Notes under the pieces: model-generated
Databases searched by the model: none
What the model was told of the DNA's origin: nothing
What the model saw: only the letters and a program-made list of their open reading frames with translations
Position numbers and translations under genes: made by a program
Shown here: one piece after another, positions 5,770 to 29,497 of the stretch
Numbering within the stretch: the stretch's first letter is position 1
Layout of the letters: each line of letters begins with the position of its first letter
Origin: Carboxydothermus hydrogenoformans Z-2901
GTDB lineage: Bacteria > Bacillota > Z-2901 > Carboxydothermales > Carboxydothermaceae
Assembly: GCF_000012865.1 (NCBI RefSeq)
Contig: NC_007503.1
Coordinates: 310,001 to 374,000 of the forward strand
DNA: 64,000 nt
Direction of reading: 5' to 3'

Positions 5770-5848
5770 AAGGTAAGCCGCTCAAAAAAGGCTTTAAATA
5801 GGCTTTGGGCCTTGCCTTTTTTGGCGAGTCTAATGCGGGAGGTTTTGG
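5770..5848 (+). ncRNA. Probable L21 leader (ribosomal-protein leader of rplU)
   Basis: The untranslated leader between the promoter and rplU contains pairing blocks such as GGTAAGCC with GGCCTTGCC, and GCTTTAAATAGGC. It lies where Firmicutes carry the L21 autoregulatory leader. I recognise it by position and fold only; a covariance-model search with the L21 leader family would decide. Confidence 0.4.
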
Positions 5849-19660: not shown

Positions 19661-19681
19661 AAATGTGAAAATGAATATTTT

Positions 19682-19859
19682 CTTCGTTAGGTGAGGCTAC
19701 TTCCTGGATATAGGCTACTGCCCGGAAATGTCGAGAGACACCAACGGGTAAACAGGTATTACCGGCTTAAGGTTTTACCTAATGTAGCTGAGGGTTTCCT
19801 CTAAGCCAGGTTGAGCTAAAGCTTTGACGAGTGGAGAAGGTTTTTACAACCTTCTTTTT
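19682..19859 (+). ncRNA. M-box (ykoK) magnesium riboswitch with terminator
   Basis: It contains the conserved M-box blocks in order: CTTCGTTAGGTGAGGCT (19682 on), CTACTGCCCGGAAATGTCGA, GACACCAACGGGT, CCTAATGTAGCTGAGGG and GAGCTAAAGCTTTGACGA. AGAAGGTT/AACCTTCT (19835-19855) plus a T-run then forms the terminator. M-boxes bind several Mg2+ ions and stop transcription when magnesium is plentiful. This one precedes an MgtE-type sensor gene and an NRAMP-related transporter. A second GGAAGGTT at 19871 could pair with the terminator strand as part of the switch. Confidence 0.92.
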
Positions 19860-25314: not shown

Positions 25315-25677
25315 TTGGAAAAAACTTTACCTCAACATATAAATATTGCAATGGATGCCGCTTTGGATAAAAAAGGATTTAATTTAAGCCTTTTAGATGT
25401 TTCTTCTTTAACGCCAATTTGCGATTACTTTTTAATAGTTTCCGCAAGTTCGACCATTCAGGTCAAAGCGATTGTCGATAACATTGAAGAAAAACTGTCG
25501 GAAATCGGCCTAACTCCTTACCGTATTGAAGGTAAAAATGCCGCCCGCTGGGTTTTAATGGATTATGGGGACCTAGTTGTGCATGTGTTTGTGGAAGAGG
25601 AACGGGAATTTTACGATTTGGAAAGATTGTGGCGGACAGCCGAAAATTACCGGCATGATGTGGTTGACAAAGTTTAA
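25315..25677 (+). CDS. rsfS: Ribosome silencing factor RsfS
   Basis: A 120-residue protein that binds L14 and blocks 30S-50S joining in poor nutrient conditions. Signatures are ICDYFLIVSASSTIQVKAI (about 35-53), WVLMDYGDLVVHVF (about 78-91) and REFYDLERLW near the end. The start is TTG 25315, preceded by GGGGAGGTG, since no ATG stands near the ribosome-binding site. Confidence 0.95.
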   Translation: MEKTLPQHINIAMDAALDKKGFNLSLLDVSSLTPICDYFLIVSASSTIQVKAIVDNIEEKLSEIGLTPYRIEGKNAARWVLMDYGDLVVHVFVEEEREFYDLERLWRTAENYRHDVVDKV

Positions 25678-25876
25678 TGATTTATATATAATTTCTCATG
25701 TGACTAACAATGTGAAAAACGGTGAAGAGGAGCAGTAACTGTTTTGTGGCTTAAAGAGAGCAGCCGGCGGGTGCAAGGCTGTAGCCTCCAAACAGTGAAC
25801 TCGCCTCGGAGTTGCCAGAGGGATAAGTACTTCTGGCCGGTATGTTCCGTTATCCAAAACAAGTGGGCAAGAATGT

Positions 25877-25951
25877 GGGGCTGTAGCGCAGTGGGAGCGC
25901 GCTTCCTTGGCATGGAAGAGGTCGCGGGTTCGATCCCCGCCAGCTCCACCA
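25877..25951 (+). tRNA. tRNA-Ala (anticodon GGC)
   Basis: A full cloverleaf of 75 bases with encoded CCA. The acceptor stem GGGGCTG pairs with CAGCTCC and includes the G3:U70 pair that defines alanine identity. The anticodon stem-loop is CTTCC-TTGGCAT-GGAAG (25902-25918) with anticodon GGC. The T arm is GCGGG-TTCGATC-CCCGC, the discriminator A (25948) and CCA (25949-25951). It lies inside the leuS T-box leader, between the two arms of stem III, so it must be cut out of the leader transcript by RNase P and a 3' nuclease. Confidence 0.97.
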
Positions 25952-25992
25952 TTATTGTATTCTTGCCAAGTAGGGTGGTACCGCGGGAAAAC

Positions 25993-26030
25993 ACTCCTCC
26001 CGTCCCTTAGGGGATGGCGAGGAGTTTTTT
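25993..26030 (+). terminator. Regulated terminator of the leuS T-box leader
   Basis: ACTCCTC (25993-25999) pairs with GAGGAGT (26019-26025 region), with an inner GTCCC/GGGAT stem and a TTTTTT tail. It competes with the antiterminator formed by the T-box sequence. Confidence 0.88.
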
Positions 26031-26057
26031 GTTATATCTACCTATTGGAGGGAGAAT

Positions 26058-28523
26058 ATGCAAGAAAGGTATGATTTTAAAGCTATTGAAGCTAAGTGGC
26101 AGAAAAAATGGGAGGAATTAAAACTTTACGAAGTGGACGATTTTTCGGAAAAACCGAAATATTACTGTTTGGAAATGTTTCCTTATCCTTCGGGGAAACT
26201 TCATATGGGGCACGTCCGCAATTACTCCATTGGGGATGTGGTAGCCCGGTACAAGCGGATGCGGGGCTATGCTGTGTTACACCCTATGGGCTGGGATGCT
26301 TTTGGGCTTCCGGCGGAAAATGCGGCGATTAAACACGGTAATGTTCATCCGGCGGATTGGACCTGGGATAATATTGCCAATATGAGACGGCAGTTAAAGG
26401 AGTTAGGTATTTCTTACGACTGGCGGCGGGAGATAGCTACCTGTCATCCGGAATACTACCGGTGGACCCAGTGGCTCTTTTTACAGTTTTATAAAAAGGG
26501 GCTTGCCTACAAGAAAAAAGCTCCGGTAAACTGGTGCCCCGGCTGTCAGACGGTTCTGGCTAACGAACAGGTGATAGACGGGGAGTGCGAACGCTGCCAT
26601 TCCCGGGTGGAGAAAAAGGAGTTAGAACAGTGGTTCTTTAAAATTACCGCTTATGCCGAAAGACTTCTGCAGGATATTAAAAAGCTTACCGGCTGGCCGG
26701 AAAAGGTAAAAATCATGCAGGAAAACTGGATCGGAAGATCCGAAGGGGCGGAAATTACTTTTAAAATAAAGGGGCATGAGGAAACAATATCGGTGTTTAC
26801 CACCCGGCCCGACACTATTTTCGGAGTAACCTATATGGTTTTGGCGCCGGAACATCCTCTGGTTGAAAAAATTTCCCGGGGGACTCAGTACGAAAAGGAT
26901 GTTTTGGAATTTAAACGGAAAATGATGTACTTGTCCGAAATTGAAAGAACCGCCGAGACCGCAGAAAAAGAAGGGGTTTTTACGGGAGCTTATGCTATAA
27001 ATCCCTTTACCGGGGAAGAGATTCCCATACTTTTAGCCAACTATGTTTTAGTGGAGTACGGTACCGGTGCGGTTATGGGGGTGCCGGCCCACGACCAGCG
27101 GGACTTCTTATTTGCCAAAAAATACAATTTGCCCATAAAAGTGGTAATAACCCCTCCGGGGCAAGAATTGAAAGCCGAGGAGTTAACGGAAGCCTATACC
27201 GGAGAAGGAATTCTGGTCAATTCCGGCGAGTTTACCGGGTTAGCCAACAAAGAGGCAATCAGGATAATTACCCAAGAAGCGGAAAAGCGGGGATTTGGTA
27301 AATATCGAGTAAATTACAGGCTTCGGGACTGGCTTATTTCCCGGCAAAGGTACTGGGGTGCTCCCATTCCGGTGCTGTACTGTGAAAAGTGCGGAATTGT
27401 TCCCGTACCCGAGGACCAGCTGCCGGTAGTTTTACCGTATAATGTAGAATTTCGTCCTACCGGGGAAAGTCCCTTAAAGTACGTTCCCGAGTTTTTAAAT
27501 GCCACCTGTCCCGAGTGCGGTGGACCTGCAACCCGGGAAACGGACACGATGGATACGTTTATTTGTTCGTCCTGGTATTACTATCGTTATACTTCGCCCC
27601 GGGATAAACAACAGCCCTGGAGCAAAGAAAAGGTGGAAAGATGGTTGCCGGTGGACCAGTATATCGGCGGGGTAGAACATGCTATTTTGCACCTTTTATA
27701 TTCCCGGTTTTTCACCAAAGTCCTCTATGACCTGGGATTGGTTCATGTGGACGAACCCTTTACCAATCTTTTGACCCAGGGCATGGTATTAAAAGATGGG
27801 GCCAAGATGAGTAAATCCAAAGGAAATGTGGTAAGTCCCGAAGAAATCGTGGAAAAATACGGGGCCGATACCGCCCGGTTGTTTATTCTTTTTGCGGCGC
27901 CCCCGGAACGGGATTTAGAGTGGAGCGACCAGGGGGTAGAGGGAAGCTTTCGCTTTTTAAACCGGGTGTGGCGGCTAATTTACCAGACCAAGGACCGGAT
28001 ATCCGATGAACTTCGGGAATTTTCGGCAAAAGATAAAGAATTAAATCGCCTGTTACACGCCACCATTAAAAAGGTAACCGAGGATATTGAAGAAAGGTTT
28101 AACTTTAATACGGCAATTTCGGCAATTATGGAGTTAGTGAACGGTCTTTACCAGTACAAAGAAGGGGAAATTAATCCCGGCCTTTTAAAAGAAGCGTTAA
28201 ACAAACTGGTGATACTTCTGGCACCTTTTGCGCCTCATATTGCCGAGGAATTATGGGAGGCATTGGGCAATAAACAAAGTGTTCACTTAGAAAAATGGCC
28301 AGAGTATGATGAAGAAGCTCTAATTACCGAGGAAGTGGAAATAGTTATTCAGGTTAACGGTAAAGTCAAGGACCGGGTAATGGTTCCGAGAAATGCGGCG
28401 GAAGATGAGTTAAAGGAAATTGCCTTAAATACGCCGAAAATAAAAGAATTGACCGCCGATAAAAAAATTATTAAAGTTATTATAGTACCGGAAAAATTAA
28501 TTAATATTGTGGTAGCGGGGTAA
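26058..28523 (+). CDS. leuS: Leucyl-tRNA synthetase
   Basis: A class I aminoacyl-tRNA synthetase of 821 residues. The HIGH motif is present as HMGH in [15 protein letters not shown] (about 42-56), and KMSKS in [14 protein letters not shown] (about 577). The CP1 editing domain has TTRPDTIFG (about 251) and ends near GVPAHDQRD (about 342). Zinc-type Cys pairs lie in WCPGCQ and CERCH, and CEKCG and CPECG. The anticodon-binding domain and a C-terminal tail follow. The start ATG is preceded by TTGGAGGGAGAAT. It is controlled by the T-box leader upstream. Confidence 0.98.
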
Positions 28524-29167: not shown

Positions 29168-29229
29168 ATACTTTTTTCACAAAAAAGGAATTGGGCGAGT
29201 TTAAGCGAACTTTGTTTAATAGAAAAAGT

Positions 29230-29497
29230 TAATACCCCACTCTACGGGTGCCCGGAAGGGTTAAAAGGGAAGCCGGACGGAATTTCCGTAAACGGCGCGG
29301 GCCCGCCACTGTACTCGGGGAGCCTCTTTTAGAGATGCCACTGTCCGTTAAATCGGATGGGAAGGCTAAAAGAGGCGATGAGCCGTAAGCCAGGAAACCT
29401 GCCCGTGAGAGTTAATCTGTCTTACCTTCGCGGCGAAGGGAGGGATTGTAAGGCTTTTGGTTATAATCCGCTTACCGAACCGGGAAGCGGATTTTTT
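29230..29497 (+). ncRNA. Cobalamin (adenosylcobalamin) riboswitch with terminator
   Basis: Conserved blocks in order: GGGTGCCCGGAAGGG, AAAAGGGAAGCCGG, GGCGCGGGCCCGCCACTGTA, GATGCCACTG, GATGGGAAGGC, and the B12 box GATGAGCCGTAAGCCAGGAA then ACCTGCCC. A terminator follows: AATCCGCTT (29465-29473) with AAGCGGATT (29485-29493) and T-run. It controls the btuFCD-type operon, repressing it when B12 is plentiful. Confidence 0.95.

Follow-up and report, generated by a model that had tools for sequence, protein, structure and literature searches.

What is a complete tRNA gene for alanine doing inside the leader of a leucyl-tRNA synthetase gene? The question is raised by the leuS locus of Carboxydothermus hydrogenoformans Z-2901, which we studied in a window (the whole stretch of DNA analysed) of 64,000 nt, positions 310,001 to 374,000 of contig NC_007503.1; coordinates below are those of the window, and features lie on the plus strand unless noted. 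The original prediction held that the leuS leader is a T-box riboswitch with the leucine specifier CUC, and that the arms of its stem III close around a whole tRNA-Ala(GGC) ending in CCA. Both statements agree with independent models. The Rfam T-box family RF00230 matches positions 25713-26010 with 142 bits (gathering score 93), covering the complete model (positions 1-219), and the specifier codon CTC is found at 25800-25802. In the Rfam alignment the terminal loop of stem III is opened by an insert of 80 nt; inside this insert the tRNA family RF00005 scores 69.1 bits at 25877-25948, and ARAGORN, run on the 64-kb window, reports a single tRNA, the tRNA-Ala(GGC) at 25877-25951 with its CCA encoded.

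The leader is thus a complete T-box riboswitch, from stem I to the antiterminator, interrupted in the loop of stem III. It is preceded by a sigma-A promoter detected by promoter scan at 25664-25692 (TTGACA-17-TATAAT, matching the consensus at 12 of 12 positions), which is overlapped by the 3' end of the upstream gene rsfS, encoding the ribosome silencing factor (25315-25677; reading frame and NCBIfam). Downstream of the specifier, the aminoacylation sensor motif RRRNG appears as AAGTG (25861-25865) and is followed by the stem III 5' arm GGCAAGAAT (25866-25874), the tRNA, the stem III 3' arm ATTCTTGCC (25959-25967) and the AA (25968-25969) that forms the second half of RRRNG...AA, so that the discriminator motif typical of T-boxes is present. 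The two arms were recognised from the sequence, the Rfam alignment, covariation and the minimum-energy fold. The antiterminator with its T-box core, AGGGTGGTACCGCGGG ... CCCGTCCCT, spans 25972-26006 according to sequence, Rfam alignment and fold, carries the UGGU at 25976-25979 and folds with the canonical 7-nt bulge. It shares bases with an intrinsic terminator, predicted by folding as a hairpin with a U-tract at 25993-26031 (-27.8 kcal/mol, z -4.7); the two are mutually exclusive and each is able to form. The fold of the whole leader (z -3.6) keeps the nine-pair stem III around the tRNA, and its minimum-energy version does not reproduce the full cloverleaf. The regulated gene leuS follows at 26058-28523 (NCBIfam leuS_bact, 1177 bits), and a tRNA-Leu(GAG) matching the CTC specifier is encoded in the genome. 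The tRNA lies before the regulated terminator, as had been proposed, and all landmarks that had been given coordinates were found in the sequence at the bases assigned to them.

Ten T-box matches were found in this genome (2,401,520 bases, one contig), and the leuS leader is the only one with a tRNA inside. Other elements above the Rfam cut-off in the window are an M-box riboswitch (19676-19842), a cobalamin riboswitch (29229-29421) and an L21 leader (5779-5833). An open reading frame on the minus strand (25704-25994), antisense to the tRNA and containing MVELAGIEPATSSMPRKRAPTALQP, is probably spurious, of the type that gets annotated over tRNA genes.

The comparison with the leuS leaders of relatives called for at the outset revealed that the insert is shared by relatives in the genus, in other families and in other phyla. 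A DNA search of 41 genomes recovered this block from the genus and from members of several other families. We then ran a covariance model built on the nested element on 398 genomes of the phylum with a threshold of 110 bits; 76 genomes reached it, all of them confirmed on inspection of their sequence (the T-box core varies slightly in two), and five weaker matches were also confirmed (G054, G077, G090, G109 and G119). Nested leaders are therefore found in 81 of the 398 sampled phylum genomes and in 30 of 144 families, as counted by hand. Several leaders from Chloroflexota and Armatimonadota score 46-91 bits, below the Rfam gathering cut-off, with E-values <1e-6. Phage records matched the tRNA part only, not the whole nested element.

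We also searched 84,980 species for a pattern without any specified amino acid, in which any tRNA 3' half with CCA is followed at a distance of 4-34 nt by a T-box core. This returned at least 80 loci, including at least about 62 real nested cases. Among the matches listed, all real nested tRNAs are tRNA-Ala(GGC), nearly all located directly before leuS (the tRNA of locus L081 is cut by the locus end). Within this listing, nesting of other tRNAs, or in the T-boxes of other genes, was rejected, as the rest of the matches listed resemble chance matches, mostly in GC-rich genomes and without leuS; rare further cases may exist beyond it. The listed nested taxa include Syntrophomonas, Thermosyntropha lipolytica, Desulfofundulus thermosubterraneus, Symbiobacterium, Ktedonobacter and Sphaerobacter, together with Armatimonadota, Coprothermobacterota and one Actinomycetota bin. 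Nested leaders span Bacillota, Chloroflexota/Thermomicrobiota, Armatimonadota and other phyla, with the reservation that many of the records are metagenome bins, for which the taxonomic placement of single records is uncertain. The nested arrangement is widespread and old; its occurrence in the phylum genomes and in the wide species survey led us to reject chance or a local oddity.

The availability of 72 homologous nested leaders allowed us to examine whether stem III is maintained around the tRNA, using a covariation alignment of 48 distinct leaders anchored at RRRNG and AA. All seven aligned pairs of stem III show changes on both sides, with 97 double-change cells versus 29.6 in shuffles, and the covariation score reaches 0.70, compared with 0.30 for shuffles and no more than 0.18 for slid versions of the stem. 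The pairs are formed in 86.3% of cases, compared with 65.6% in shuffles and 25-46% in slid versions; as the anchors were chosen partly by pairing, this percentage leans towards structure, a bias that bears less on the double changes. Where the tRNA is missing, relatives have an ordinary short hairpin as stem III at this site, for example GGGCA-TTC-TGCC followed by AA in L222, and roughly half of the tRNA-less relatives examined score as normal T-boxes. Since the short hairpin is found at exactly that site, we conclude that the tRNA sits where a normal stem III has its loop.

Other parts of the switch are retained as well. The RRRNG and AA sensor motif, described as flanking stem III in the accessible text of PMC7583486 and PMC7778990, is kept on both flanks in most nested relatives; L057, L071, L089, L136, L107 and L094 have no clear RRRNG...AA motif for anchoring. 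The CUC specifier motif is present in 72 of 72 leaders (67 by a strict count, versus 3.8 in shuffles), the T-box UGGU is invariant (n=72), the 3' strand of the antiterminator occurs in 71 of 72, and the RF00230 gathering score is exceeded in many relatives. A hairpin with a T-run was detected as terminator in 55 of the 72 leaders, versus 4-5 in shuffles, and those lacking a clear terminator are mostly GC-rich and have a hairpin with a weak T-run. L071, L089, L136 and L057 form a distinct Bacillota group whose sequence around stem III differs and shows no clear RRRNG, with T taking the place of G or A after the T-box core (ACCGCGT).

The embedded tRNA of the window has the cloverleaf, the GGC anticodon, the CCA and the G3:U70 pair expected of a tRNA-Ala (ARAGORN, RF00005). 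This alanine identity pair is found in 71 of 71 nested leaders and A73 in 72 of 72, and the anticodon is GGC in all. Another tRNA-Ala(GGC) was sought in the genome of the window, as had been advised; the nested copy is the only one found, and the tRNA lists agree. The same holds for 75 of 76 nested genomes, as judged by a sequence pattern that an atypical tRNA-Ala(GGC) would escape, and pattern counts gave exactly one such gene in each of 16 genomes from named loci, Chloroflexota and Armatimonadota included. The single nested genome with a second, stand-alone tRNA-Ala(GGC) is G129 (G129:C30:483, L322), where this copy has its own terminator. Because the nested gene is the only copy found, its tRNA is very likely to be processed and charged in the cell.

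By sequence, tRNA and mRNA share one promoter, the single consensus site before the leader, with none inside. A promoter with at least 11 of 12 matches lies about 50 nt before the T-box in 26 of 32 nested leaders; strong promoters are also frequent before other T-boxes of the comparison set, so this is a supporting point only. We infer that the tRNA and the leuS leader are co-transcribed in the cell. As the tRNA stands before the conditional terminator, the order of elements implies that it would be transcribed in every round, ahead of the decision.

To follow the history of the nested state we used a tree of 67 LeuS proteins, on which it is scattered: at least 14 changes are needed, and the at least 10 that are forced by well-supported branches reject nested leaders as one clade. 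In this count losses and transfers are indistinguishable. Repeated independent insertion is unlikely because the same tRNA is found at the same site, which suggests that the arrangement arose once, long ago, and that the leader was later lost or transferred many times.

Several loci depart from the common layout. In G250 (L214, G250:C81:16500-17400) and in L235, a tRNA-Ala(GGC), the 3' arm of stem III and a terminator hairpin precede leuS and the T-box core is gone; both show a natural loss of the switch in which the tRNA has been kept, with G250 marking a stage of it. In Desulfofundulus thermobenzoicus (L124, from 7025), the gene behind the nested T-box is not leuS but encodes an AMP-binding acyl-CoA ligase, so that either the locus was rearranged or the switch has acquired a new target. 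The first gene of locus L108 (1208-2149), from Armatimonadota, is ilvE, encoding a branched-chain aminotransferase (NCBIfam, 386-400 bits), and leuS comes next; the nested T-box may there control a leucine biosynthesis gene as well, and the ilvE context fits leucine control. Reading frames similar to this ilvE lie between the nested T-box and leuS in L129 and L146, also from Armatimonadota, and may be under the same control. In Chloroflexota a GNAT acetyltransferase gene (Pfam) occupies this position in L099 (432-986), with similar frames in L093, L114 and L074.

We propose that the leuS leader is a dual-purpose RNA, a leucine T-box switch and a tRNA-Ala(GGC) precursor made from one promoter, and consider this reading of the sequences highly probable. 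One strong promoter would drive a composite leader, in which a complete attenuation-type Leu T-box carries tRNA-Ala(GGC) in place of the stem III loop. Every transcript, whether terminated or read through, would be a precursor of tRNA-Ala, and leuS mRNA is predicted to appear solely upon stabilisation of the antiterminator by uncharged tRNA-Leu(GAG). The embedded tRNA would fold independently atop stem III, leaving the RRRNG-stem III-AA discriminator still able to form around it, as supported by the conservation and covariation of stem III. RNase P and 3' processing would later free the tRNA and sever the sensor from the leuS mRNA, the release presumably following the antitermination decision. 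Such an arrangement would be kept by lock-in, since its loss would strip a needed tRNA of its promoter, and lock-in of the sole tRNA is probably the reason for its maintenance.

Could the tRNA instead be a passenger, either an accident of insertion or a gene with a transcript of its own? T-boxes with insertions in stem III and in other domains are known (accessible part of PMC7583486), which might suggest an accidental insertion, a functionless pseudogene or an integration scar. However, the tRNA is intact, with G3:U70 and CCA, no second copy was found, and the arrangement is present in 30 families of a single phylum as well as in further phyla; this conservation refutes an accident or scar, to which we assign practically no probability. 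It also seems very improbable that the tRNA comes from a separate transcript and shares no more than an overlap with the leader, even though relatives do possess tRNA-Ala(GGC) genes that stand alone and have terminators of their own. The strong consensus promoter at the start of the leader is conserved, and the next terminator after the tRNA is that of the T-box. A separate tRNA promoter, which the original prediction regarded as the sign that the tRNA is not part of the leader RNA, was looked for: the window has no further promoter-like site on the plus strand between the leader promoter and the tRNA, and internal promoter signals in the 72 nested leaders stand at the shuffled level (6.8 versus 6.9). 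We therefore rejected a promoter belonging to the tRNA itself.

The remaining readings accept the composite RNA and add an influence of the tRNA on the switch. The embedded tRNA might be a second input, whose folding, cleavage by RNase P or 3' trimming alters the antitermination decision. Early cleavage could cut the sensor from the expression platform, with leuS defaulting to off, or else stem III could delay RNase P until the decision has been taken. The linkers, mostly 2-9 nt on the 5' side and 1-9 nt on the 3' side, put stem III within the region of the 5' leader that RNase P reads, and RNase P is inhibited when the 5' leader pairs with RCCA (PMC9433436, as far as its accessible text goes). 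A GU at -2,-1, able to pair with A73C74, is present in 46 of 71 leaders. Yet GU is frequent at these positions before stand-alone tRNA-Ala genes too, and we rejected it as a special RNase P feature of the nested leaders. The linkage is conserved over 30 families and into other phyla, as a second input would predict, but the sole-copy status of the tRNA explains this equally well, and the persistence of the tRNA in G250 after loss of the T-box core shows a tRNA independent of the switch. On balance a second input appears unlikely. The same holds for the fuller scenario, of one ancient tRNA-Ala(GGC) insertion, made before the phyla split or transferred between them, that was kept because tRNA folding or RNase P processing times or gates antitermination; this, too, we consider possible only at a low level. 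Fainter still is the suggestion of the original prediction that the tRNA's own ACCA (25948-25951) pairs in cis with the T-box UGGU. Its factual part stands, as the two are about 24 nt apart and complementary, here and in 72 of 72 leaders. The pairing itself is doubtful: stem III, a covarying helix of 7-9 bp, separates the two, and the minimum-energy fold does not contain the ACCA-UGGU pairing. Moreover, an NCCA that is extended at its 3' end would be expected to mimic a charged tRNA and not the inducer. A73 and the U of the T-box are invariant in all 72 leaders and each is fixed for another reason (A73 of tRNA-Ala; A73 of the tRNA-Leu read by the T-box); covariation between ACCA and UGGU is hence uninformative and was set aside as evidence.

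The dual-purpose leader that we favour can be compared with several known systems. In bacterial tRNA-mRNA operons, such as thrU-tyrU-glyT-thrT-tufB of E. coli, tRNAs that precede an ordinary mRNA share its transcript and are cut out of it. Here, too, a tRNA and a translation gene are on one transcript, but the tRNA is part of a folded regulatory element and is followed by a conditional terminator. The thrS leader of B. subtilis is cut near the antiterminator by mRNA-decay enzymes, which alters mRNA stability; the leuS leader would likewise be cut, though by tRNA processing. With attenuation-type T-boxes (RF00230; the tyrS, leuS and glyQS leaders of Bacillus subtilis) it shares the complete stem I with CUC, the stem III with RRRNG...AA, the UGGU bulge, the antiterminator, the terminator and leuS as the regulated gene. 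Unlike in ordinary T-boxes, stem III has as its apical loop an entire tRNA gene that looks functional and serves another amino acid, and the leader would also yield a tRNA, the release of which by RNase P would split the riboswitch in two. Curious insertions of unknown structure and function are described for every T-box domain in PMC7583486, and those in stem III or helix A2 resemble the present case in adding sequence to the discriminator domain; here the insert is a tRNA, whereas none is called a tRNA in the accessible text of that paper. In the part of the T-box literature that was accessible to us, no account of a tRNA nested within a T-box came to light. Within that scope the statement that the arrangement is undescribed holds up, and it is likely novel.

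These observations indicate that a non-cognate and probably essential tRNA can be built into a riboswitch as one of its structural parts, and they raise a question of order, as the T-box decision must precede the RNase P cut between sensor and platform. Cultured carriers such as Syntrophomonas and Thermosyntropha make the arrangement open to experiment. They also bear on the age of the leuS T-box: several phyla have this tRNA at one and the same site, which suggests a single origin and many later losses or transfers, and the leader illustrates how one RNA can serve as a regulator and as the precursor of a stable RNA together.
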